Source of the DNA: Nitrospirota bacterium
Lineage (GTDB): Bacteria > Nitrospirota > Thermodesulfovibrionia > Thermodesulfovibrionales > UBA1546
NCBI GenBank assembly: GCA_021824065.1
Contig: JAKALU010000005.1
Span: 1 to 56,780 of the forward strand
Length of the DNA: 56,780 bases
Direction of reading: 5' to 3'
Part shown: in pieces, positions 34,469 through 47,775 of the stretch
Layout of the letters: each line of letters begins with the position of its first letter
Position numbering within the stretch: the first letter of the stretch is position 1
Translations under genes and position numbers: made by a program
Notes under the pieces: model-generated
Database searches by the model: none
The model's input: only the letters and a program-made list of their open reading frames with translations
What the model was told of the DNA's origin: nothing

Positions 34469-35620
34469 ATGAAGAAAAGTTTTACGGTTATTTTGCTTCT
34501 GGTATTAGCCGCAATTAGCTATATAGTATTCAGTGGAGTCCCGGGTTACGGAGGGGCTACAGCTCCAGGTTATGGGGGTTCAACATCGACTGCTGCGTCT
34601 GCAGAAAAGGCAGTAGCGGTAGAAGCAAAAGAGATAAAGGCAGCCAAGGAACCAAAATTTAACGCTATTGCTTATATAGCAGGACACGGCGGTCATCTGG
34701 CAGTTATTGACCTCAGGACTATGAAGGCCCCGGTGGACATGGAAAAGGGCAGGATTGTTCTTACAGAAGCTGGCTCTGAGATGGAAGGCAAGATTGCCGG
34801 CATGAGCTTTGAAGAGGTTAAGAAGGCTGGCGGTTCTCACGGTCAAGCGCTCATAAAACAGAAGGGTAAAAAGGTTTTGGTTGCCGGTACATTGGCTGGC
34901 AATGTCTATAAGGTTGATCTCAGCACAGGGAAAAAGGAAGGACCCTTTAAGGTAGGAGAGAAGTTCTGCGGCGCTATAGTCGGCCCTGATGGCAATATTT
35001 ACCTTGAGGATATGGCAGACGGTCATATATACATTTGGGATGCAAACAAGTTGAAGACTGTAGACAAGATGCCTGTAGGCAAAGCGCTATGCGGTATCCA
35101 ATGGACTAAAGGTGCTAAGAAAGCATACATTACCGATATGCCTGTGGGTGTAGTTTACGTCTATGACTGGAAGACTAAGAAAAAGATAAAGGAAATCAGC
35201 AGCCCTGAGATGACATTTATTCACCAGGCCAGAATGACCCCTGATGGGAAATATCTCTGGGTAAGCGCTCCAAATGAGTTTGACCCAGGGCTTAAACCAG
35301 GCACACACAAGAGCCAGGTCATTATTATTGACACCGCCAAAGATGAGATCGTTAAACGTATAATTCTACCTGATAATGTAAGACCTCACGACTTTGCATT
35401 TACCAAAGACGGTAAATATGCTTTCCTTTCATCCAGGACATATGGGGATGACAGCACACTAAACATAATGGATATGAAAAACTACAATATTGTAGGGAAA
35501 GTGTCAGCATGCGCTGAATGCCATAAGGCTGCAGGAGTAACGGTCAAAGTCGATAAAGGCTCACCACTTCTTTGCGGTATAGAGGTTGATTGGAGTCCAG
35601 CAAAGGTGGCTAAGAAGTAA
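34469..35620 (+). CDS. Secreted beta-propeller protein with one C-terminal CXXCH heme site (copy 1)
   Basis: 383 aa. A signal peptide (residues 1-22) is followed by a Gly/Ala-rich linker (GYGGATAPGYGGST) and a YVTN/cytochrome d1-like propeller with repeats such as NAIAYIAGHGGHLAVIDLRT, GKKVLVAGTLAGNVYKVDLS, GAKKAYITDMPVGVVYVYD, GKYLWVSAPNEFDPG and GKYAFLSSRTYGDDSTLNIM. CAECHK near 348 is a single c-heme motif. It should act in the periplasm or be surface-anchored. Weakly similar to the protein at 38530 (AGHGGH near the N-terminus, CXXCH and LLCGI/ILCGL at the C-terminus). It has its own terminator and precedes an ABC permease. Confidence 0.8.
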   Translation: MKKSFTVILLLVLAAISYIVFSGVPGYGGATAPGYGGSTSTAASAEKAVAVEAKEIKAAKEPKFNAIAYIAGHGGHLAVIDLRTMKAPVDMEKGRIVLTEAGSEMEGKIAGMSFEEVKKAGGSHGQALIKQKGKKVLVAGTLAGNVYKVDLSTGKKEGPFKVGEKFCGAIVGPDGNIYLEDMADGHIYIWDANKLKTVDKMPVGKALCGIQWTKGAKKAYITDMPVGVVYVYDWKTKKKIKEISSPEMTFIHQARMTPDGKYLWVSAPNEFDPGLKPGTHKSQVIIIDTAKDEIVKRIILPDNVRPHDFAFTKDGKYAFLSSRTYGDDSTLNIMDMKNYNIVGKVSACAECHKAAGVTVKVDKGSPLLCGIEVDWSPAKVAKK

Positions 35621-35640
35621 ATTTAAAACTCTGAACTTAA

Positions 35641-35674
35641 GGGCTGGAGAATGTAAAGTTTTCCAGCCCTTTTT
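35641..35674 (+). terminator. Rho-independent terminator
   Basis: GGGCTGGA (35641-35648) pairs with TCCAGCCC (35662-35669), followed by five T. It lies 20 bases after the propeller gene stop. Confidence 0.85.
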
Positions 35675-35712
35675 ATGTCAATAGACATTACTATTGTATA
35701 ATTAACTATATA

Positions 35713-36918
35713 ATGAAAAAGATAAAAATCTTCAGCCTTGCCGTAAGAAACCTGAGAAGAAAATTCGTCCGTACATTTGTATTACTTCTGGTAGTTGCAG
35801 TAGTTACCGGCACATTGCTCAGTGCGACTATTTTCATAACCGGGATGAAGAATGCCATGAAGATTGGCACCTATCGACTTGGTGCAGATGTGCTTGTAGT
35901 ACCCGAGAAAAATGAATCTCAGGCAAAAGCAGCGCTGCTTGCTGGTGAGCCAACAAGCTTTTATATGGATAGGGATGTCCTTGAAAAAGTAAAAAAGATT
36001 GAAGGGGTAAAAAAGGCGTCTCCGCAGCTTTTTCTCAAACCATCGTCTTTCACCTGTTGTTTTAATGTAGATGTTTTTCTTGTGGCCTTTGAACCTAAGA
36101 CAGATTTTACAATAACTCCGTGGCTTGAAAAAAATCTTAAGAAACCTCTTGCAGGCAATGAGATTATAACAGGCAGGGAAATACCAGTTGTTGTAGGGGA
36201 TACAATCCCATTTTTTGGAGCACCCTTTAACGTTGTTGGCACTATGGAACCTACAGGCATGAAATTTTTTGACCAGACGGTTTTTATGACTATGGACGCA
36301 GCATATACCATGGCTGAAAACTCAAAGACTAAGTCAATGCAGCCAATCGATATAGCTAAGGATAAGATTTCAGCAGTGCTGGTTCAGGTTCAGGAAGGCT
36401 ATACCCCTGAAAGGGTTGCTATAAGAATAGAACATGATATTGAGGGGATTAAGGCGATCGCATCAGACGAGGTTATAAGTACGGTGCGAAGACAATTGAA
36501 CGGACTGCTGAGGGGGATACTCGCAATAAGCGCTGTATTATGGATACTGGCTCTTTTAATGATGGGTTTTGCATTCTATATGATTGTTAATGAGAGACAG
36601 AGGGAACTCGGTCTGCTAAGAGCGATGGGAGCGAAAAAGGGACATATTTTCAGCCTGATAATAACAGAGGCTGTCATGATATCTTTTATAGGCGGTGTTA
36701 TCGGATTAATAAGCGGTTATATGCTTTTGCTTACGTTTAAAAGTCTTATACTCCACAGCCTGAAATTACCATACCTTTTACCTCCTGTAATGGTTCTTAT
36801 TGAACTTCTGTCCGGTGCAATTATATTCTCTATGCTTACAGGGCTTCTATCATCCCTGTTGCCTGCTGTCTCTGCAAGCAAGATGGAGCCGTATGAAGCA
36901 ATTAGAAAAGGAGAATAA
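35713..36918 (+). CDS. FtsX/MacB-like ABC permease with Cys-Cys motif (module 1)
   Basis: 401 aa. TM1 is at about 20-40, then an extracytoplasmic domain, and three C-terminal TMs at about 275-300, 325-345 and 362-388. RLGADVLVVPEKNES, SFYMDRDVLEKVKKIEGVKKASPQL and SFTCCFNVDVFLVAFEP are shared with the permease at 39749; the Cys-Cys pair is in the outer domain. ERQRELGLLRAMGAKKGHI is the FtsX-family cytoplasmic coupling segment. The type recalls the Cys-Cys permeases beside FTR1/P19 iron systems. Likely an exporter or a mechanotransmission complex with the ATPase at 37617; substrate unknown. Confidence 0.88.
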   Translation: MKKIKIFSLAVRNLRRKFVRTFVLLLVVAVVTGTLLSATIFITGMKNAMKIGTYRLGADVLVVPEKNESQAKAALLAGEPTSFYMDRDVLEKVKKIEGVKKASPQLFLKPSSFTCCFNVDVFLVAFEPKTDFTITPWLEKNLKKPLAGNEIITGREIPVVVGDTIPFFGAPFNVVGTMEPTGMKFFDQTVFMTMDAAYTMAENSKTKSMQPIDIAKDKISAVLVQVQEGYTPERVAIRIEHDIEGIKAIASDEVISTVRRQLNGLLRGILAISAVLWILALLMMGFAFYMIVNERQRELGLLRAMGAKKGHIFSLIITEAVMISFIGGVIGLISGYMLLLTFKSLILHSLKLPYLLPPVMVLIELLSGAIIFSMLTGLLSSLLPAVSASKMEPYEAIRKGE

Positions 36919-36928
36919 GGGAGGAGAA

Positions 36929-37570
36929 ATGAAAATAGGTAATTTAATGATGACTATAAGGCTATGTATACCGGGTATGCTGATTATTGTTTTGCTATCA
37001 GTTATTTCATGCAAGAAGGAACAACCTATTCCAGAAAAAAGGCCGGTTCAGGCTATAAATCCATATTCAAGCGATTCTGTTTTTGCTGAAGTGAAAGAGA
37101 AATTACAAAAAAATCCCGATGATGTGGATGCACTATATCATCTTGCCGACCTGTATGACCGTAACGGGCAATATGCCGAAGCCATAGATGCATATAAAAA
37201 AGTGATAAAATTAAAGCCCGATATGGGATATGCATATTTTAAAATGGGCACAGCATATGATCGTCTCAATCAGCCTGCGGAGGCAATAAATGCGTTAAAG
37301 AAGGCTATAAAATATATGCCCAACTATGCAGCGTCATACAATAATCTTGGTATAGCTTACGGCAAGCTTAATAGATTTAATGAAGAAATAGCAGCTCTGA
37401 AAAAGGCGATAAAACTAAGGCCGACATATTCATCAGCCAGATATAATTTAGGTATCACATATTTAAAGACAGGGAATAAAAAGGCTTCTATGCAGGAATA
37501 TGAATCCTTAAAGAATTTTGACGAAGGCGCTGCAGAGGCTTTATTAAAAGAGATAAAAAGTGCTTCATAA
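36929..37570 (+). CDS. TPR-repeat lipoprotein
   Basis: 213 aa from ATG 36929 with GGGAGGAG 3-4 bases upstream. The signal peptide ends LLSVISC, a lipobox with Cys28. Four to five TPR units follow (DALYHLADLYDRNGQYAEAI, GYAYFKMGTAYDRLNQPAEA, AASYNNLGIAYGKLNRFNEE, SARYNLGITYLKTGNKKA). It should be an envelope scaffold for the permease or propeller protein; module 2 lacks an equivalent. The 3' end carries a 22-bp tandem duplication across the stop. Confidence 0.88.
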   Translation: MKIGNLMMTIRLCIPGMLIIVLLSVISCKKEQPIPEKRPVQAINPYSSDSVFAEVKEKLQKNPDDVDALYHLADLYDRNGQYAEAIDAYKKVIKLKPDMGYAYFKMGTAYDRLNQPAEAINALKKAIKYMPNYAASYNNLGIAYGKLNRFNEEIAALKKAIKLRPTYSSARYNLGITYLKTGNKKASMQEYESLKNFDEGAAEALLKEIKSAS

Positions 37571-37590
37571 AGAGATAAAAAGTGCTTCAT
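37547..37590 (+). repeat. Perfect 22-bp tandem duplication across a stop codon
   Basis: A 22-base unit occupies 37547-37568 and 37569-37590, identical in both. The first copy encodes the last residues KEIKSAS of the TPR protein; the second lies after the stop. Confidence 0.95.
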
Positions 37591-37616
37591 AAGGACTAAG
37601 CTAAAAAATATAGTAT

Positions 37617-38282
37617 ATGATTGAGATCAAAAATCTTATAAAAACTTACAACATAGGCGGGCAGACCATTAAGGCTGTGGATAATGTAAGTTTGATGATT
37701 GAAAAAGGAGATCTCGTATCAATAGTCGGACATTCTGGCAGCGGGAAGACCACACTCTTGAGTCTAATAGGGGGGTTGACAATGCCTGCTTCGGGCTCTG
37801 TCATAATTGACGGAATAGATATATGGTCTATGGGCGATGACAAGCTTTCTGAGTTCAGGAATAAAAAGATCAGCTTTATATACCAGTTTTCGAGCCTTAT
37901 TCCAACCCTGACAGTTCTTGAAAACGTGATGCTTCCAACTGCTTTTGGATCTCATGATGAAAATGCAGAAGAGTATGCAAAGAAACTTCTTGATACAGTT
38001 GGACTGAAAGATAAGATGACTTCATATCCCTCACAACTTTCAGGCGGGCAGCAAAGGAGGGTTGCTATTGCAAGGGCATTTATTAATAAACCCGAGATTA
38101 TCCTTGCTGACGAACCCACCGGAGACCTCGATGAGGAGACAGAAAAAGAAATCTTAAGCCTTTTTCACAGTATGAATAGAGAAAAAAATATAACTTTTGT
38201 TATCGTAACCCACGATAAGGAGATTGCAAACCAGGCCAAAAGGAAATTAAAAATGGGTAATGGTTCTATTAAAGAACTATAA
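37617..38282 (+). CDS. LolD/MacB-type ABC ATPase (module 1)
   Basis: 221 aa. Walker A VGHSGSGKTTLLSLIGG, Q-loop YQFSSLIPTLTVLENV, signature LSGGQQRRVAIARAF, Walker B EIILADEPTGDLD, and H-loop VTHDKEIA. It matches the FtsX-class partners of MacB/LolCDE systems. It should pair with the permease at 35713, with the TPR lipoprotein gene between them. 61% or so of positions look shared with the module 2 ATPase by eye. Confidence 0.93.
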   Translation: MIEIKNLIKTYNIGGQTIKAVDNVSLMIEKGDLVSIVGHSGSGKTTLLSLIGGLTMPASGSVIIDGIDIWSMGDDKLSEFRNKKISFIYQFSSLIPTLTVLENVMLPTAFGSHDENAEEYAKKLLDTVGLKDKMTSYPSQLSGGQQRRVAIARAFINKPEIILADEPTGDLDEETEKEILSLFHSMNREKNITFVIVTHDKEIANQAKRKLKMGNGSIKEL

Positions 38283-38529: not shown

Positions 38530-39666
38530 ATGAAAAAAGTTTTGGTATTGCTTTTTGCTGTATTGTTTGTCTGCGCAGGATACCTTGCCTTCACTACCAT
38601 TGATTCCAAGACACCCGCTGTTGTAGCTGCAAAAAAGACATATTCAGCCACTGTTTATGTAGCTGGACACGGTGGTCACTTTGCCAAGGCAGATGTGACT
38701 ATAGACCCAAATGACGCTGATAACCCGATAAAGATAAACAGTCTTGATAAGGTTGATATCGGGACAACAGCAACCCACAAAACCCATGATGCGCGTATAG
38801 ACGCCACTGACAGCAACATTCTATTCTGGTCAACATATGCGTTAGATGACAAAGGAAAGCAGCATGTGGGCAAGTCCGACCTGAAAACAGGCAAGGTTAT
38901 TACGGATATAGCGATGGATCCAGACCCAAGGGCTCCTGGAAAGACAGGACCGATTTACTGTGCATCAGGGCAGAGCAAAAAAGATTTTATGCCGGTATTT
39001 ATGGGTAGCGAGGCATATGTCGATGTATTTGATAAGAAAACAATGGAACATAAACACAGGGTGTTTATAAGCGACCTCGGCTATAAGCCTGGCACCTATC
39101 AGTTTTTGCATGGGATTAACTCCAATGATATGAAGAAATTCCTTCTCACCATAACTATGAAGGGTGAGGATGGGAAGATGAACGGGAAGCTGGACTTTGT
39201 AATGGTTGATCTCCCATCCCTTGAGAAGGGCAAATTCAAGGAGCTTGCAAGAAACACATTGAGCGGCGAACCTGGAAAGACCATCACCTTCAGACAGTAT
39301 TTCAGCAAGGATGATAAATTAATCTTTCAGTCAGCTGCAGACAGAGTCTGGGTAATGGATGCAGCCACCCTTAAGCTCGTAGATGAAAAAACGACAGGCG
39401 CTAATGGTCAGAACCATGATGTAATGCCAACCCCTGATGGTAAATATGCTCTCCTGACCCTTAGAACCACTACCGCAGCAGTTGGTGCGGATGGGAAGGC
39501 AATTGAGGGCAAAACCATCACAGATGGTACATTGATGCTCTATGATGCTGATGCCAAAAAACTCGTGGGCAAACCTACATCAACCTGTTTAGGATGTCAC
39601 CAAAACATGGCACTTGGTGATAAGAATGCGATTCTTTGCGGCTTAGACGCCAACTATAAAAAATAA
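38530..39666 (+). CDS. Secreted beta-propeller protein with one C-terminal CXXCH heme site (copy 2)
   Basis: 378 aa. Signal peptide residues 1-22, then TYSATVYVAGHGGHFAKADV. Propeller-like repeats include HDARIDATDSNILFWSTYAL, KLIFQSAADRVWVMDAATLK and GKYALLTLRTTTAAVGADGK. CLGCHQ near 353 is the single heme-c motif and ILCGLDANYKK the end. It is a diverged paralogue of the protein at 34469 with the same start/end landmarks. It has its own promoter and a strong terminator, and precedes permease/ATPase module 2. A periplasmic electron or ligand carrier is likely; the substrate is unknown. Confidence 0.8.
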   Translation: MKKVLVLLFAVLFVCAGYLAFTTIDSKTPAVVAAKKTYSATVYVAGHGGHFAKADVTIDPNDADNPIKINSLDKVDIGTTATHKTHDARIDATDSNILFWSTYALDDKGKQHVGKSDLKTGKVITDIAMDPDPRAPGKTGPIYCASGQSKKDFMPVFMGSEAYVDVFDKKTMEHKHRVFISDLGYKPGTYQFLHGINSNDMKKFLLTITMKGEDGKMNGKLDFVMVDLPSLEKGKFKELARNTLSGEPGKTITFRQYFSKDDKLIFQSAADRVWVMDAATLKLVDEKTTGANGQNHDVMPTPDGKYALLTLRTTTAAVGADGKAIEGKTITDGTLMLYDADAKKLVGKPTSTCLGCHQNMALGDKNAILCGLDANYKK

Positions 39667-39679
39667 CTGCTTTCTTTTT

Positions 39680-39723
39680 ATTCTTTCTATGCGGCTGACA
39701 AAGCCGCATAGAAAGAATTTCTT
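39680..39723 (+). terminator. Strong Rho-independent terminator
   Basis: A 17-bp perfect stem (ATTCTTTCTATGCGGCT with AGCCGCATAGAAAGAAT, loop GACAA) followed by TTCTT, 13 bases after the propeller gene stop. Confidence 0.85.
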
Positions 39724-39748
39724 ATAATCATTTATAATAAATTAAAAT

Positions 39749-40945
39749 ATGATGAAAAAATTCACGCTATTTTCACTTGCGCTTAAAAACCTCAAAAGGA
39801 AGCCTTTAAGAACAAGTATACTGGTCATCGCGATAGGACTATTGGTATCTGCTTTTGTATTTGCATTATCTTTTGTCAGGCGCGTTGACTCAAGTATCAA
39901 AATTACTTCTGAACGGCTCGGCGCTGACCTGCTTATAGTACCTACAGGATCGAGAGGGGCAGCAGAAGATGTCCTGCTCGAAAATGAGGTGAAGTCATTT
40001 TATATGGATAAAGGTATTGTAGAAAGGGTGAAGAAGATCAAAGGTGTAGACGAATTAACATACCAGACCTATCTTGTTACCATAACAGGTGCTTGCTGTG
40101 ATGTGCCTGAGTCTATAGTTATTGCATTTAACCAGGATACTGATTTCATTATTAAGCCCTGGCTTAATAAAAAGTTGGGCAGGAGGCTTCAAAAAGGTGA
40201 AGCTATTGTTGGCAGTGAGTCGGCTTTTAACATCAGGATAGGGCTCACAGAGGTGGATAGCGTCCTGTTCGGGAATATGTTTAAAATGGTTGGTGTTCTC
40301 GACAAAACAGGAACAGGGCTTGATAACGCCATATTCATCGATGATGAAAATATAGCTGATATAGTGAGGGGAGGCAAGGCGAATATAAAATCAGGGCAGA
40401 TATCCCTCATTTTTGCAAAGATCAAAAAAGGTCATGATCCTTACAAGGTTGCCGGCGAGATTGAGGATTCCATAATAGAAGTAGACGCAGTAGCAAGAAA
40501 GGATATCGGCAAGAATATAATAAATACACTGAGAGATATAAACCGGATATTCTCTATTACAGTGATACTTGCCTCCATACTCTCTGTATTTCTTGTCTGG
40601 GCTGTTTTTTCTGCAATTGCTAATGAGAGGGCAAAAGAAATTGGAATCATGAGGGCTATTGGTGCAAAGGAATACCATGTTGTAAGGCTTTTTTTTCTTG
40701 AGGTTTTGGTTATCGGCAGTATTGGAAGTATCATCGGCATTATCTCCGGGACTGTCCTTTCTTTATTGATGGCAAAGAGTTTCACCATTCTGAAAAATTT
40801 AGCTGCGGACTTAAACACCGTGGAGCGTGTTTTCATAGCTACATTAAGTTTCTTGATTGGAACAGTGGTCTGTGTTGCTGGAGCCCTTTCACCAATCCAG
40901 AGAATAAAAAAACTGGAACCACTTTTAGCAATAAAAGAGGAATAA
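39749..40945 (+). CDS. FtsX/MacB-like ABC permease with Cys-Cys motif (module 2)
   Basis: 398 aa with the same plan as the permease at 35713: TM1 at about 22-42; outer domain with RLGADLLIVPTGSRG, SFYMDKGIVERVKKIKGV and TGACCDVPESIVIAF; and three C-terminal TMs. ERAKEIGIMRAIGAKEYHV is the coupling segment. The Cys-Cys pair is conserved, implying a redox or metal/heme function in the outer domain. One base separates its stop from the ATPase start. Confidence 0.88.
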   Translation: MMKKFTLFSLALKNLKRKPLRTSILVIAIGLLVSAFVFALSFVRRVDSSIKITSERLGADLLIVPTGSRGAAEDVLLENEVKSFYMDKGIVERVKKIKGVDELTYQTYLVTITGACCDVPESIVIAFNQDTDFIIKPWLNKKLGRRLQKGEAIVGSESAFNIRIGLTEVDSVLFGNMFKMVGVLDKTGTGLDNAIFIDDENIADIVRGGKANIKSGQISLIFAKIKKGHDPYKVAGEIEDSIIEVDAVARKDIGKNIINTLRDINRIFSITVILASILSVFLVWAVFSAIANERAKEIGIMRAIGAKEYHVVRLFFLEVLVIGSIGSIIGIISGTVLSLLMAKSFTILKNLAADLNTVERVFIATLSFLIGTVVCVAGALSPIQRIKKLEPLLAIKEE

Positions 40946-40946
40946 T

Positions 40947-41621
40947 TTGTCACAGATAGAGATTATAGACATTACTAAGATCTATTCGATAGATAGTTTG
41001 AATATCAATGCTGTTGATAATGTTTCATTAAGGGTGGAGAAGGGTGAGTTCTTGTCTATAGTAGGGCATTCAGGCTCTGGCAAGACGACCCTGATCTCTA
41101 TTATCGGGGGTATAATAAGACCTTCCTCAGGAAAGATACTGTTTGATGGAACAGATATCTTTTCTTTCAATGACGAAAAATTATCGGGATACAGGAGCGA
41201 GAAAATCGGTTTTATGTTTCAGTTCTCAAGCCTTTTGCCGATTCTTACTGCAAAGGAGAATGTCCTTCTCCCGTGTCTTTTCAGCCCGGCGAAGAGGTCA
41301 GATAATGAAAAAAAGGCAATAGAATATCTTAATATGGTAGGTCTGAGTGATAAGATAAATGCATATTCATCACACCTCTCGGGAGGGCAGCAGAGGAGGG
41401 TTGCCATTGCGCGTGCATTGATGAACGACCCAGAAGTCATACTCGCTGATGAGCCCACAGGCGACCTTGATGAAAAGACAGAGGCTGATATAATGAAGTT
41501 CTTTAAGATAATGAATGAAGAAAGGGATATAACCTTTATTATGGTTACTCATAATACAGAGCTTGCAAGGCAGACTAAACGACAGTTGAAAATGAGTAAT
41601 GGTTCGATTAAGGAATTATAA
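40947..41621 (+). CDS. LolD/MacB-type ABC ATPase (module 2)
   Basis: 224 aa with a TTG start directly after the permease stop. Walker A VGHSGSGKTTLISIIGG, Q-loop FQFSSLLPILTAKENV, signature LSGGQQRRVAIARAL, Walker B EVILADEPTGDLD, H-loop VTHNTELA. Closely related to the module 1 ATPase, down to the shared C-terminus NGSIKEL, supporting duplication of the whole module. Confidence 0.93.
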   Translation: MSQIEIIDITKIYSIDSLNINAVDNVSLRVEKGEFLSIVGHSGSGKTTLISIIGGIIRPSSGKILFDGTDIFSFNDEKLSGYRSEKIGFMFQFSSLLPILTAKENVLLPCLFSPAKRSDNEKKAIEYLNMVGLSDKINAYSSHLSGGQQRRVAIARALMNDPEVILADEPTGDLDEKTEADIMKFFKIMNEERDITFIMVTHNTELARQTKRQLKMSNGSIKEL

Positions 41622-41991: not shown

Positions 41992-42362
41992 AATCCGTTC
42001 TTTGTCTGCTGTAAATCTTACATCTGTATAAGTATCAGGAAGAGTTACATCTGTTTGTGTAAGGATGGCAGGCAAGGATTTCTCCCCGTTAAATGCCCTG
42101 CCTCGGTTTTCGGGGCAGGGACTTTCTGAACAATTGACTATTCAAAAATTATCCTTGATAAATTTAAAATTATAACTATAATTATGTATATAAATTTCAA
42201 TTATAAAGGGTTGTGGATTTTTCAAGACAGCTTTCTGGATTAAAAGAGCAAAGTTCCCCAGTTGTGTTTCCTTTCCGGGAACTGGAAAGGGAGGTGATGT
42301 CTATCGAGAGTCTGCGATAGTAGTTGTTCAATAGTTTTAAGAATTTAATAAAAGGAGGGTTT
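41992..42362 (+). other. Long leader of the five-heme cytochrome with several hairpins
   Basis: No gene of usual size. CCCTGCC/GGCAGGG (about 42096-42120) forms a stem without a T run. Further on, AGTTCCC (42252-42258) can pair with GGGAACT (42277-42283), while CCTTTCC (42270-42276) can pair with GGAAAGG (42284-42290); the two are mutually exclusive. GGAGGTG with ATG 42297 opens a seven-codon frame ending in a CTATCG/CGATAG hairpin. The real ribosome site AGGAGG is at about 42353. Confidence 0.4.
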
Positions 42363-43562
42363 ATGAGGTTTTTGAAATTGATTCTCATACTGCTTTTTAT
42401 GGCAGTCCCGCTTATAGCATCTGCGGAGAAAGCAAAGACGATTGATGAACTTGCCAAAATGTACGACTCATCAAGGTGTAAGGAATGCCATGAAAGTATT
42501 TACAAACAGTGGGAAAATTCTCATCATGCAAGGCCATTGATGGGTGTAAAAGGCGGCTTGATGCTGACACCCCTTGCTACAAAGGGTGCAACCGCTTTTT
42601 CTCCCGATGACCCTAAGAAGGCAACGATAAAGAATTTCCCGTGCTTTAAATGCCATCTCCCGCAGGCAATTACATCAGCAGAGGATTCGGTTGCAGTTGA
42701 GTTAGCCGAGGCGCTTCTTGCAAAAGATTCGACTAAAGTCGCTAAGCTTCAGATCACCTGTATTGTCTGTCACAATACAAAGGCGATTATTCACAAACGC
42801 GAATTAGGCGAGCCAAAGGCAGGCGTTCTTTACAGCTCAAAGGCAGTAGATTCTCACCCTGACGGGATATTCAAAAAAGTTGAAAAGAGCGCTATCATGA
42901 AGGATTCAGTATACTGCGGGCAGTGCCACGGCCTCGGCCCGAATCTCGAGTTTGACCAGGCATTCCAGTGCGCAAACCTTTATGGAAGCTATCTCCATTC
43001 CTACATACCTTCAGGCGCGTCACAGACATGTATGGACTGTCATATGCAGAAGGGTGATCATCTTATAGCCCCTAACTTTAATGACGATAAGGGAACATCA
43101 GAGCTTCTTGCAAAGGCAATCAGCCTCGATGTCCAGACTTTAGGATACGAATGGTTGCTAAAGGCAGGAACATATGTTCCTAAGGTCGTGGTTAATACGA
43201 AGATAACCACAACCGCTGGCCACAGAATCCCTGACGGCTGACCATCGCACAACAGAGTGGTCATGGTAGTGACCGCAAAGGCAGCAGATGGTAAAGAGTT
43301 GGGCAAAGTTGAAAAACACTATCACCCTCAGGCAACAAACTGCCGTGATACAAAGATGAGGTATGGTGCACAGTGGAAAGTTGCAAACCTGCGTGACACA
43401 AGCCTACAGCCTGCTCAGGCCAAAAAAGAGTCAATAGAATTTGATCTTCCAGCAGGCGTAAGAGAAGCAACTGTGACAGTTGATCTTTTCTACGAGAATG
43501 TCAATCCTGGTAATAAGTACTCAATACATTCGATAACAAGGAAAGTATCTCTCGACAGATAG
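42363..43562 (+). CDS. Five-heme cytochrome c, probable selenoprotein (in-frame TGA at codon 293)
   Basis: 399 residues if TGA 43239-43241 is read through. Signal peptide residues 1-21. CXXCH motifs at 39-43, 94-98, 133-137, 185-189 and 223-227; this is a multiheme c554-like fold. The TGA follows TTTAGHRIPDG, and 106 well-formed codons continue (PSHNRVVMVVTAKAADGKEL onward) to a TAG stop, 18 bases before a perfect terminator. A SECIS-like stem lies 15 bases after the TGA. Start: AGGAGG 6-7 bases before ATG 42363. It should sit in the periplasm as an electron carrier or reductase. Alternatives: nonsense-mutated pseudogene, or a sequencing error. Confidence 0.78.
43239..43276 (+). promoter_or_regulatory. 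TGA codon and SECIS-like hairpin
   Basis: GTGGTCA (43257-43263) pairs with TGACCGC (43270-43276) over seven pairs including one G-U, with a six-base loop TGGTAG that has G at its second position. Stem starts 15 bases after the TGA and the loop 22 bases after, inside the spacing known for bacterial SECIS elements. TGACCA/TGGTCA across the codon gives an alternative outer pairing. Confidence 0.6.
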
Positions 43563-43580
43563 ATCTGATTTGCTGTGGAA

Positions 43581-43618
43581 ATGCTGTGCCTGCATTATGC
43601 AGGCACAGCATTTATTTT
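43581..43618 (+). terminator. Perfect terminator after the selenocytochrome gene
   Basis: ATGCTGTGCCTGCAT and ATGCAGGCACAGCAT are exact complements separated by one base, followed by TTATTTT. Its place after the second half of the gene supports a single transcription unit. Confidence 0.9.
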
Positions 43619-43780
43619 GAATTAATCCGCCTTTGTTGCCAAATATTTAGGCTTAATTTATATCTTTATATAGCGTGGCAATTATCTCTTGACTATTTAT
43701 TATTTTTTGTGCTAAAAAAAGACGCTTAATATCAGGGGATAAATTAAGAAGTATTTGACTAAATAATGCAGGAGGGGAAG

Positions 43781-44053
43781 ATGGGAAAGAAAGTTGCAGT
43801 GCTCATTAGGAATAATCAGGATGAAGGATTCAGAATGTCTGTCGGTCTTACGCTTGCTGACGATGAAGTGAACGTGTTTCTCATGGACAAAAAACTTGAA
43901 TCAGGCGAAAATATCGACCTCAATGTTGAGACCCTTGGCGATTTGGATGTTAAGCTGTTTTCCAATAATCCTGAAAATAGTAAATTTCAGCAGATGAATA
44001 CCGAAGAGATTGGCAAGGCATTAGCAAATTATGATGCTGTAATCACATATTGA
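43781..44053 (+). CDS. DsrE-like small protein
   Basis: 90 aa from ATG 43781, with AGGAGGGG directly upstream (the GTG/ATG at 43766 is not supported). KKVAVLIRNNQDEGFRMSVGLTLADDEVNVFLMDKKL matches the start of the DsrE/TusD fold, and ALANYDAVITY ends it. No obvious cysteine is present, so it is unlikely to carry persulfide itself. It lies upstream of a TusA-like gene, suggesting a link to sulfur handling. Confidence 0.7.
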   Translation: MGKKVAVLIRNNQDEGFRMSVGLTLADDEVNVFLMDKKLESGENIDLNVETLGDLDVKLFSNNPENSKFQQMNTEEIGKALANYDAVITY

Positions 44054-44240: not shown

Positions 44241-44489
44241 ATGGAAGAAGATATTAAGCCTGATAAGAAGATAAACATAAAAGGCCTTGTGTGTCCTTAT
44301 ACATTTGTGAAGGCAAAGCTTGCAGTCGAGGATATGGAGGTCGGACAGGTTATCGAGATTTTGCTCGACTATGAGGAGGCATCAAGGAGCATACCAAAAT
44401 CAATGGAAGATCATGGGCAGAAGGTCCTGAAAGTAGAAAAGATAAATGACACAGATTGGATATTGCTTATCAGGAAAGAGAAGGAATAA
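44241..44489 (+). CDS. TusA-family sulfur carrier
   Basis: 82 aa. INIKGLVCPYTFVKAKLAVEDMEVGQ contains the CPxT/P-like active-site Cys of SirA/TusA, followed by VIEILLDYEEASRSIPKSMEDHGQ and a final strand. TusA proteins relay persulfide sulfur; here the next gene is an E1-like adenylyltransferase, so it may supply sulfur to the MoaD-like carrier at 47175. 34 bases separate the two genes. Confidence 0.9.
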   Translation: MEEDIKPDKKINIKGLVCPYTFVKAKLAVEDMEVGQVIEILLDYEEASRSIPKSMEDHGQKVLKVEKINDTDWILLIRKEKE

Positions 44490-44523
44490 GCCTGTCTAAT
44501 ATTATCAGGATGGGGGTAATGAT

Positions 44524-45324
44524 ATGGAGTTTACAGAAGACCAGTTACAAAGATATAGTCGTCATATAATACTGCCGGAGGTTGGCGGTAAAGGCCAGAG
44601 AAAATTGCTGCATGCAAAGGTTTTTATTGTCGGTGCAGGTGGTCTTGGATGCCCTGTGGGATACTATCTTGCTGCTGCTGGTGTTGGCACCATTGGAATG
44701 GTAGACAACGACACAGTTGAGTTGAGCAATCTTCAGAGGCAGATAGCTCACAGCACTAAGACCCTTGGCATACACAAGGTTGACTCTGCAAAGGCGACCT
44801 TTGAAGCCTTGAACCCTGATATTAAGGTGGTAGGCATAAAAGACCGGATTTCAAAGGATAATATTAAGGATTTGATAAAAAACTATGATATTGTGGTGGA
44901 TGGCAGTGATAATTTCCCGACAAGGTATCTTGTAAATGATGCATGCGTGATGCTCAAAAAGCCCCTTGTCAGCGGTGCGATTTTGAAATTTGAAGGGCAG
45001 GTCACAACCATTCTTCCCGGCGAAGGTCATTGCTATAGATGTCTCTTTGAGGAAATGCCCCCCCCGGGCCTTGTGCCTTCTTGCCAGGAGGCAGGTGTAA
45101 TTGGAGCTATACCTGGTGTTGTTGGTTCCCTTCAGGCCATTGAGGTTGTCAAACTGATACTTGGGAAGGGTGATGTCTTAAAGAATACCCTTTTGATATA
45201 CGATGCCTTAAAGACAACATTCCGGCGCGTTAAAGTGCCTAAGAATCCGCATTGTCCTGTATGCGGAGATAATCCGACTATTACAGAATTGCGGGATTAC
45301 GATGCAGAGTACTGTAGAATTTAA
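44524..45324 (+). CDS. ThiF/MoeB-type adenylyltransferase (E1-like)
   Basis: 266 aa. YSRHIILPEVGGKGQRKL, VFIVGAGGLGCPVGYYLAAAG, DNDTVELSNLQRQ (ATP-binding Arg), DGSDNFPTRYLVNDAC and VPSCQEAGVIGAIPGVVGS match MoeB/HesA. Zinc pairs are CYRC and CPVC. It adenylates the C-terminal Gly of a ubiquitin-like sulfur carrier, here most likely the product at 47175. There is no rhodanese domain, so sulfur must come from another protein such as the adjacent TusA. Confidence 0.93.
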   Translation: MEFTEDQLQRYSRHIILPEVGGKGQRKLLHAKVFIVGAGGLGCPVGYYLAAAGVGTIGMVDNDTVELSNLQRQIAHSTKTLGIHKVDSAKATFEALNPDIKVVGIKDRISKDNIKDLIKNYDIVVDGSDNFPTRYLVNDACVMLKKPLVSGAILKFEGQVTTILPGEGHCYRCLFEEMPPPGLVPSCQEAGVIGAIPGVVGSLQAIEVVKLILGKGDVLKNTLLIYDALKTTFRRVKVPKNPHCPVCGDNPTITELRDYDAEYCRI

Positions 45325-45344
45325 TTGCTTTACTTAAGCACTAA

Positions 45345-45746
45345 ATGAACGAATTAATCATTCCTCAACAAATCCTCGAAGATATGCTTGTCTACTGCAA
45401 GGGTATGTATCCAAACGAGGCGTGTGGTATTCTTGCAGGGAGGAACAATGAAGCTTTAAAGATTTATAAAATGACCAATATTGAAAATTCTCCTGTAAGT
45501 TATATGATGGATTCGATGGAGCAATTTAAGACTATGAAGGATATGCGTGAAAATAATCTATCCATGCTGGCAATCTTTCATTCCCATCCATCCTCAGCAG
45601 CATACCCCTCGCAGAAGGATTTAAGCCTTGTTTTTTACGAGGATTCTGTTTATGTTATTGTGAGCCTGATAGAAAAAGAACCGATTGCGAAGGGTTTTTT
45701 GATAAGAGAAGGAAGTATAAAAGAGATTGATATCATTGTGAGATAG
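45345..45746 (+). CDS. JAMM/MPN+ metallopeptidase (Mec+/HcyD-like)
   Basis: 133 aa. YPNEACGILAG supplies the catalytic Glu, and IFHSHPSSAAYPSQKDLSL is the HxH...S..D zinc motif of JAMM peptidases. In the CysO/CysM and HcyS systems such enzymes trim extra residues from a carrier protein or release the new amino acid from it. The carrier at 47175 ends GG-ARQ and so would need this trimming. 20 bases downstream of the E1 gene. Confidence 0.92.
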   Translation: MNELIIPQQILEDMLVYCKGMYPNEACGILAGRNNEALKIYKMTNIENSPVSYMMDSMEQFKTMKDMRENNLSMLAIFHSHPSSAAYPSQKDLSLVFYEDSVYVIVSLIEKEPIAKGFLIREGSIKEIDIIVR

Positions 45747-45936
45747 GCCAAGGACGATACCAAAGTTCAGTTGTAAAGATTTCAGTAAATCTGCATGGAG
45801 AGGGCAAATCAGTCCTGCTTTTATGGTGTTAGCTGTCAATCCCTTTAATTTTATATTCAATTTGGAGTAGAATATACCTTACTTTTTCTAAAGGTTTCCA
45901 GCATAGTTTTTTCACTGGATTAAACAGGAGGTGTTT
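45747..45936 (+). other. Gap before threonine synthase
   Basis: 190 bases with no coding frame. TAGAAT at about 45868 with TTTAAT 18 bases upstream could be a weak promoter. GGAGG precedes ATG 45937. No clear terminator seen. Confidence 0.3.
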
Positions 45937-47175
45937 ATGGGATATGTAAGTGGTCTTAAGTGCAGAGAGTGCGGCAGGGAATATCCTGTTGATCCCATAT
46001 ATGTCTGCGAATTCTGTTTCGGACCATTAGAGGTTGTCTATGACTACAAAAAAATAAAGCGTGTATTGACAAGAAAGAACATAGAGAAGAGGGAGAATAA
46101 TCTCTGGAGGTATAAGGAGCTTCTGCCCATAGATGGAGAGCCGCAGGTAGGCTTGAACTCAGGGTTTACACCTCTTATAAAGGCCGATAACCTTGCAGGC
46201 GAACTCGGGATTAAGGAATTATATATAAAGGACGATACTGTCGCCCATCCAACCCTCTCATTTAAAGACAGGGTTGTGGCAGTCGCACTAACAAAAGCAA
46301 AAGAGTTCGGGTTTGATACAGTTGCATGCGCTTCTACTGGTAACCTGGCCCATTCTGTGTCTGCCCACGGAGCTAAAGCAGGTTTTAAGAGATTTGTTTT
46401 TATCCCCGCAACACTTGAGCCGAGCAAGATTGTCGCATCCCTTGTGTATGAGCCAAATCTGATTGCTGTTGACGGGAACTACGACGAGGTTAACAGACTC
46501 TGCAGCGAGATAGCCAATAAATATAAATGGGCATTTGTGAACATAAATATAAGACCCTTCTACGCAGAAGGTTCAAAGACACAGGGATTTGAGATTATAG
46601 AGCAGTTAGGGTGGAAAGCGCCTGATAATGTTGTTGTGCCGTGTGCCAGCGGTTCACTCTTAACAAAGGTATGGAAGTCATTTAAAGAATTTAAAAAAAT
46701 AGGGATATTGAAGAAGCTTGATACAAAGGTCTTTGCTGCACAGGCAACAGGCTGCTCTCCGATATCTCTTGCAATAAAGCAAGGTACAGATGTAATAAGG
46801 CCTGTGAAGCCAAATACTGTTGCAAAATCCCTTGCAATTGGCAATCCCGCAGATGGATTTTATGCTATTCAAGCTGTAAAGGAAAGCAGAGGATACGGTG
46901 AAGATGTTTCAGATGAGGAAATAATTGAGGGAATAAAAATGCTTGCAAGGGCCGAGGGTATTTTTGCAGAGACCGCAGGTGGTGTTACACTTGCCTGCAC
47001 GAAGAGGCTTATCGAAACAGGGAAGATAGGAAGGGATGAAACAACAGTTATATGCATTACTGGCAATGGGCTTAAAACACAGGAGGCATTGGATGGGCAT
47101 ACAGCGGCACCGCATTACATAAAACCAAATCTCGCATCTTTTGAAGAGGTGCTGAAAAAGATAGGAGGTAAATGA
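45937..47175 (+). CDS. thrC: Threonine synthase, long form with N-terminal zinc ribbon
   Basis: 412 aa. The N-terminal CRECGREYPVD and CEFCFGPLEVVYD form a zinc ribbon. PLP fold-type II features: HPTLSFKDRVVAVAL (Schiff-base Lys), ACASTGNLAHSVSAHG, VVPCASGSLLTKVW and CITGNGLKT. It converts O-phosphohomoserine to threonine. AGGAGG lies 6 bases before ATG 45937; a GTG two codons earlier is unsupported. A second synthase gene follows at 47888, and the sulfur-carrier gene overlaps this one by one base, so this copy might instead use thiocarboxylate as nucleophile; that is hypothesis. Confidence 0.9.
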   Translation: MGYVSGLKCRECGREYPVDPIYVCEFCFGPLEVVYDYKKIKRVLTRKNIEKRENNLWRYKELLPIDGEPQVGLNSGFTPLIKADNLAGELGIKELYIKDDTVAHPTLSFKDRVVAVALTKAKEFGFDTVACASTGNLAHSVSAHGAKAGFKRFVFIPATLEPSKIVASLVYEPNLIAVDGNYDEVNRLCSEIANKYKWAFVNINIRPFYAEGSKTQGFEIIEQLGWKAPDNVVVPCASGSLLTKVWKSFKEFKKIGILKKLDTKVFAAQATGCSPISLAIKQGTDVIRPVKPNTVAKSLAIGNPADGFYAIQAVKESRGYGEDVSDEEIIEGIKMLARAEGIFAETAGGVTLACTKRLIETGKIGRDETTVICITGNGLKTQEALDGHTAAPHYIKPNLASFEEVLKKIGGK

Positions 47176-47456
47176 TGGCAGTAAAGGTAAGGATTCCGAC
47201 ACCGCTGCAGAGATTAACGCAAGGGAAAGAAGAAGTTGATGGTGTGTCAGGCACCATAATGGAACTTGTCACAGACCTTGATAAAAGATTTCCAGGTATA
47301 GGTGAGAGGATATCCGAGGGGGGTAAGGTAAGGAGGTTTGTTAATATTTATGTTAACGAAGAGGACATAAGGTTTCTTAAGGCAGAGGATACGATTGTCA
47401 AGGATGGCGATGAGGTTTCCATAGTCCCTGCAATTGCAGGAGGGGCACGGCAGTGA
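47175..47456 (+). CDS. MoaD/ThiS-like sulfur carrier ending GG-ARQ
   Basis: 93 aa. KVRIPTPLQRLTQGKEEVD, TIMELVTDLDKRFPGI and DTIVKDGDEVSIVPAIAGGARQ are a ubiquitin-like MoaD/CysO fold. The usual C-terminal Gly-Gly is followed by ARQ, so the protein cannot be adenylated until trimmed; CysO/QbsE/HcyS-type carriers share this feature and use a JAMM protease, present at 45345. ATG 47175 is favoured over ATG 47172 because GGAGG then has a six-base spacing. The first base overlaps the upstream stop. Confidence 0.92.
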   Translation: MAVKVRIPTPLQRLTQGKEEVDGVSGTIMELVTDLDKRFPGIGERISEGGKVRRFVNIYVNEEDIRFLKAEDTIVKDGDEVSIVPAIAGGARQ

Positions 47457-47530
47457 ATAGTAGTTAGTGAACAGTAAATATAGAAATTTAAAACTATTCG
47501 CTGACGACTGTTCACTATTCACTAAACAAG
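47455..47530. repeat. TAGTTAGTGAACAGT word repeat
   Basis: The spacer between carrier and NIL genes is made of GTTAGTGAACAGTAAAT and GACTGTTCACTATTCACTA, which are partly complementary to each other and belong to the same word family as 55380-55440. Confidence 0.55.
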
Positions 47531-47538
47531 GAGGATTT

Positions 47539-47775
47539 ATGAAGAAGCGTGTTAAATTGACCTTCCCTCAGCGTTTAATCAAAGAGCCTGTTATATTTAC
47601 AATGGCTAAGAAGTATGATGTGATGCCTAATATCAGGAGGGCAAGGGTAACAGAAACGGTAGGAGAAATGGTTCTTGAACTCGAAGGAACAGAAGAAAAT
47701 CTTGAAAAAGGTATAAAGTCCCTGAGAGAGCAGGGTGTAGAAGTTGAACTTGTAGAAGGAGACATCATAGAGTAA
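47539..47775 (+). CDS. NIL-domain protein
   Basis: 78 aa from ATG 47539, with AGGAGG 5-6 bases upstream. VKLTFPQRLIKEPVIFTMAKKYDVMPNIRRARVTETVGEMVLELEG followed by NLEKGIKSLREQGVEVE is the NIL domain also found at the C-terminus of MetN and fused to ferredoxins in sulfide-dependent homocysteine synthesis systems of methanogens. Alone here, it may bind methionine or assist sulfur transfer. Sits inside the sulfur/threonine gene series. Confidence 0.88.
   Translation: MKKRVKLTFPQRLIKEPVIFTMAKKYDVMPNIRRARVTETVGEMVLELEGTEENLEKGIKSLREQGVEVELVEGDIIE

Follow-up and report, generated by a model that had tools for sequence, protein, structure and literature searches.

An ExtKL-type pentaheme cytochrome c of Nitrospirota, very probably a selenoprotein, with natural cysteine forms and comparative evidence for its SECIS element

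The ExtKL family of multiheme cytochromes was first predicted in a 2007 study, which sought a SECIS element for it without success and knew of no homologues devoid of selenocysteine (Sec) (PMC1914089). Its Geobacter representative, ExtKL of G. sulfurreducens (GSU2937-2936; PMC1914089, PMC5877670, PMC6148476), combines a pentaheme N-terminal part with a UGA that encodes Sec at the same motif as in the gene described here, and is located in an extHIJKLMNOPQS cluster. A role of this protein in selenite and tellurite reduction has only been suggested (PMC5877670), and the contribution of the entire extHIJKL cluster to metal reduction is only partial (PMC6148476). Structures have been solved for MccSep (PDB 9wt8, 9wta, 9wtb) and for its U325A mutant (9wt9, 9wtc); both the family and its Sec are thus already known. 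The short and long pentaheme cytochromes of cable bacteria (sPHC and lPHC) have been put in one group with ExtKL in a work that describes an extKL-like two-gene layout for one of them and makes no mention of selenocysteine (PMC11976967). In NCBIfam, the family corresponds to the equivalog NF040886, ‘multiheme c-type cytochrome (seleno)protein ExtKL’, a wording that suggests that cysteine (Cys) forms are already known to the curators.

Our analyses show that a gene from a 56,780-nucleotide stretch of Nitrospirota DNA (hereafter, the window) belongs to this family and almost certainly encodes a selenoprotein. It runs on the plus strand, like all of its features described below, from an ATG at 42363 to a TAG at 43560-43562 and comprises 399 codons if its in-frame TGA is read as sense (42363..43562). 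This TGA (codon 293, 43239-43241), found in the context AGHRIPDG-UGA-PSHNR, is followed by 106 sense codons up to the TAG, as a previous sequence-only reading of the window had correctly reported. The predicted protein starts with a likely signal peptide, judged from its hydrophobic N-terminus (MRFLKLILILLFMAVPLIASA; 42363..42425), and contains five CXXCH heme-binding motifs, all within residues 39-227 and in invariant alignment columns: CKECH (residues 39-43, 42477..42491), CFKCH (94-98, 42642..42656), CIVCH (133-137, 42759..42773), CGQCH (185-189, 42915..42929), and CMDCH (223-227, 43029..43043). Invariant residues outside these motifs include His55, Cys203, His233 and, within the family motif AGHRIPDGU (43215..43241), His287, Asp291, and Sec/Cys293. 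The protein matches NF040886 with 447.7 bits (cut-off 250), its residues 18-397 covering positions 27-422 of the 423 in the profile, and so do all 43 relatives of our alignment A1; it shows the five CXXCH motifs and the Sec or Cys at the GHxxPDG(U/C) site that define ExtKL. Its nearest solved relatives are the MccSep structures 9wt8 and 9wt9 (E 9e-71 and 5e-71, respectively), homologous over residues 17-359 although MccSep is longer (450 versus 399 residues), and residue 293 aligns with Sec325 of 9wt8 and with Ala325 of the mutant 9wt9. The Geobacter precedent named by the sequence-only reading is the right one, with a different host, Nitrospirota instead of Geobacter.

Two other explanations of the TGA have to be weighed. 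Geobacter genomes were initially annotated with ExtK and ExtL as separate genes (PMC1914089, PMC6148476), and at the present locus a 101-codon ORF does exist from a GTG at 43257; the UGA might then be a true stop, with the second half starting alone. Likewise, the assembly behind the window is a draft in 211 contigs, in which a TGG, a TGC or a frameshift might have been misread as TGA, or the gene might be a pseudogene. Against separate genes, 15 relatives (9 + 6) carry a Cys codon exactly at the UGA position within a single unbroken frame, sequence conservation shows no break across the UGA, the stem that follows it is conserved at the synonymous level (see below), and full-length MccSep has been solved with its Sec. 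The alignment column for residue 293, which we inspected for Sec or Cys as the earlier reading had proposed, contains TGA (51), TGC (6), TGT (3) and no other codon. In a second clade, with the motif GHRIPDG(U/C)(L/M)W, Cys stands in six rows and Sec in nine, and in a maximum-likelihood tree of uncertain root the Cys rows make up two well-supported clades plus a distant, uncertain row (L100). An error or a pseudogene is at odds with the recurrence of this TGA in the order, where 38 genomes assembled separately have it, and in loci of Desulfobacterota, as well as with purifying selection that is as strong downstream of the UGA as upstream of it (in comparison with the relative G006, dN 0.094 and dS 1.97 before the UGA, dN 0.069 and dS 1.07 after it). 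We consider it very improbable that ExtK and ExtL are separate genes here, and an assembly error or pseudogene even more so, practically negligible. The single gene with Sec293 is the reading that we retain. Two differing UGA-containing extKL paralogues, one of each clade, occur in tandem in another genome (G050:C152:17609-20783; L012 and L050).

The hairpin found downstream of the UGA (43257..43276) is the same one that had been noticed from the sequence and taken for a SECIS element: it starts 15 nt past the UGA and pairs 43257-43263 with 43270-43276 in a stem of seven pairs, with a six-base UGGUAG loop (43264-43269) at a UGA-to-loop distance of 22 nt. In this single sequence its fold exceeds chance only modestly, with a z-score of -2.05 and 6 of 200 shuffles equally stable, and a z-score of about -0.6, without significance, against synonymous-codon shuffles. 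Since the latter comparison was mostly without significance among the relatives too, we relied on the comparative signal. In UGA genes, the stem codons are nearly frozen, V299 being GTG in 40/40 cases, V300 GTC in 45/47, L301 CTG in 30/31, V303 GTG in 48/51, and T304 ACC in 46/47; codons 299-304 are 90-100% codon-conserved in these genes, versus a gene median of 0.55. By contrast, the same positions vary freely in Cys genes, where the stem is not kept. The five inner pairs are present in 96-100% of UGA genes, the outermost pair in 78% and the loop-closing seventh pair in 39%, so the conserved core has about five to six pairs. Compensatory exchanges are found from G-C to A-U (L009 and L063), from C-G to G-C (L045), and from C-G to U-A (L072). 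Thus codon-frozen and covarying in UGA-containing relatives and lost in Cys genes, the hairpin bears out its assignment as a SECIS element. An Rfam scan of the region retrieved no SECIS family, with chance matches on the terminator hairpin only.

The genome of the window also possesses the machinery for Sec incorporation, which the earlier reading had wished to see checked (selA, selB, selC, selD). It encodes a complete SelB (contig C95, 381 bits), SelD (contig C97, G000:C97:61139-62059, 332 bits), and tRNA-Sec (contig C41, 69 bits; anticodon TCA according to ARAGORN), together with the first 189 residues of SelA, ended by the terminus of contig C204. SelD is itself a selenoprotein in this genome: its gene has a UGA at the canonical GUAGK site (AAGUAGK). 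Among 101 related genomes, 38 contain the UGA form of ExtKL and all 38 have SelB over the cut-off; in the seven genomes without SelB over the cut-off the UGA form is never found, and G090, which is among them, carries Cys forms. The family match, a position restricted to Sec or Cys, the SECIS comparison and the Sec machinery all support the proposal of a Sec-containing five-heme cytochrome c. We are highly confident that it is an exported ExtKL/MccSep protein whose UGA293 is read as Sec via SelB, tRNA-Sec, and the SECIS hairpin.

The neighbourhood of the gene differs from the Geobacter ext cluster, a location that NF040886 does not demand. None of the neighbouring proteins scanned around the gene matched ext families, and extHIJ and extMNOPQS neighbours are absent from this scanned stretch. 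A terminator-like hairpin of 16 pairs lies 3’ of the gene (43579..43613), in agreement with the terminator seen by the earlier reading, and argues that extKL closes its own transcription unit; upstream, there is a weakly indicated promoter-like site (42155..42182, 11/12 matches), such sites numbering 12 in the region versus 8.0 +/- 3.1 in shuffles. Further upstream, on the plus strand, are genes for a secreted-looking, beta-propeller-like protein of 378 aa with one CLGCH motif and no Pfam or NCBIfam family (38530..39666), an FtsX/MacB-type permease identified by Pfam PF02687 and synteny (39749..40945), and an ABC transporter ATPase recognised from sequence (40947..41621). The region contains two adjoining sets of this kind (34469-38282 and 38530-41621), each with a secreted beta-propeller-like protein, an FtsX/MacB permease and an ABC ATPase, the first with an additional TPR protein. 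Immediately upstream of extKL, such a propeller-like/permease/ATPase set is again present in several genera (G002, G059, G088, G050, G037, and L064, a contig of Nitrospira sp.), but not in G005, G011, G006, and G043. The set may be a partner of the selenocytochrome. More tentatively, and with a rather low probability, the Nitrospirota selenocytochrome would work outside an ext conduit with such other partners, namely a secreted heme-bearing or beta-propeller protein and a MacB/FtsX-type ABC transporter. If so, it may act as the last enzyme in a redox system of the periplasm, on a substrate other than that in Geobacter.

Downstream, a 91-95 aa protein without family (43766..44053, plus strand) is found near extKL also in G068, G059, and G004; a DsrE-like identity, proposed by eye, found no support in Pfam or NCBIfam. 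In G004, extKL is likewise followed by the small unnamed protein, TusA, and MoeB, in that order; these genes, too, might be partners. The region 44241-47775 contains a sulfur-carrier cluster (TusA, MoeB/ThiF, a JAB protease, a threonine synthase-like PLP enzyme, a ThiS/MoaD-like protein, and a NIL-domain protein) that we liken to sulfide-dependent amino-acid pathways. Elsewhere, a frame of 900 residues (L101/L105, G032:C60:38611-41310, minus strand) has ten CXXCH motifs and joins a cytochrome b561-like membrane part to a C-terminal module that resembles ExtKL and has a TGA in frame at GHSIPDGUPPRSR. It scores 109 bits against NF040886, below the cut-off of 250, its whole architecture was found in no other of 296 Nitrospirota genomes, and it is possibly a fused, membrane-bound selenocytochrome.

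In the AlphaFold model of the protein (mean pLDDT 88.8), the N-terminal heme domain is helical; a beta-sandwich-like part begins at residue 253, and the Sec motif lies within it. The nearest older fold retrieved by Foldseek is the penta-heme cytochrome c552 of Thermochromatium tepidum (5ze8, E 3.4e-15), a distant sequence match of related overall fold with 18% identity; 9wt8 is absent among the Foldseek matches listed (library to April 2026). We propose that electrons from the pentaheme domain reach an active site to which the C-terminal beta-sandwich contributes. There, Sec293, beside the invariant His287 and Asp291 and close to a heme, would be redox-active and might reduce a small oxidised substrate in the periplasm, for example a selenium or sulfur oxyanion. 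Alternatively, Sec293 could serve mainly to tune a heme, as its axial ligand or as a metal ligand, in a protein that solely transfers electrons. In favour of this, distant pentaheme relatives outside the family still keep five hemes with Met, Asn or Phe at the site (L098, L099, L102, and L103). Within the family, by contrast, Sec and Cys are interchangeable and no other residue occurs, an exchange that is usual for redox-active sites. The literature supports both sides: ExtKL-like proteins have been treated as electron carriers, but the same work counts the small pentaheme family with the cytochromes that possess a pentacoordinated heme, potentially a catalytic one (PMC11976967). In our opinion, a mere ligand function is unlikely, and the Sec is rather probably used catalytically than structurally or purely as a heme ligand. 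A periplasmic oxidoreductase with a redox-active Sec and hemes that supply its electrons is our best inference. Selenium or sulfur oxyanions as its substrate are conceivable, though they would not be our first expectation; the selenite idea rests on the Geobacter ext operon, and this operon is absent from the neighbours scanned around the present gene.

What is new is the presence of UGA-containing ExtKL across many genomes of Nitrospirota, probably of the order Thermodesulfovibrionales, the Cys homologues and the comparative evidence for a SECIS stem, both new with respect to the 2007 prediction (PMC1914089), and the distinct gene neighbourhood. One selenoprotein is confirmed where standard annotation would make two genes. 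The surprise for specialists is small; the value of the finding lies in this different neighbourhood, in the SECIS evidence and in the natural Sec/Cys pairs, and the Cys homologues together with the SECIS evidence allow the role of Sec to be tested through a comparison of natural Sec and Cys forms.
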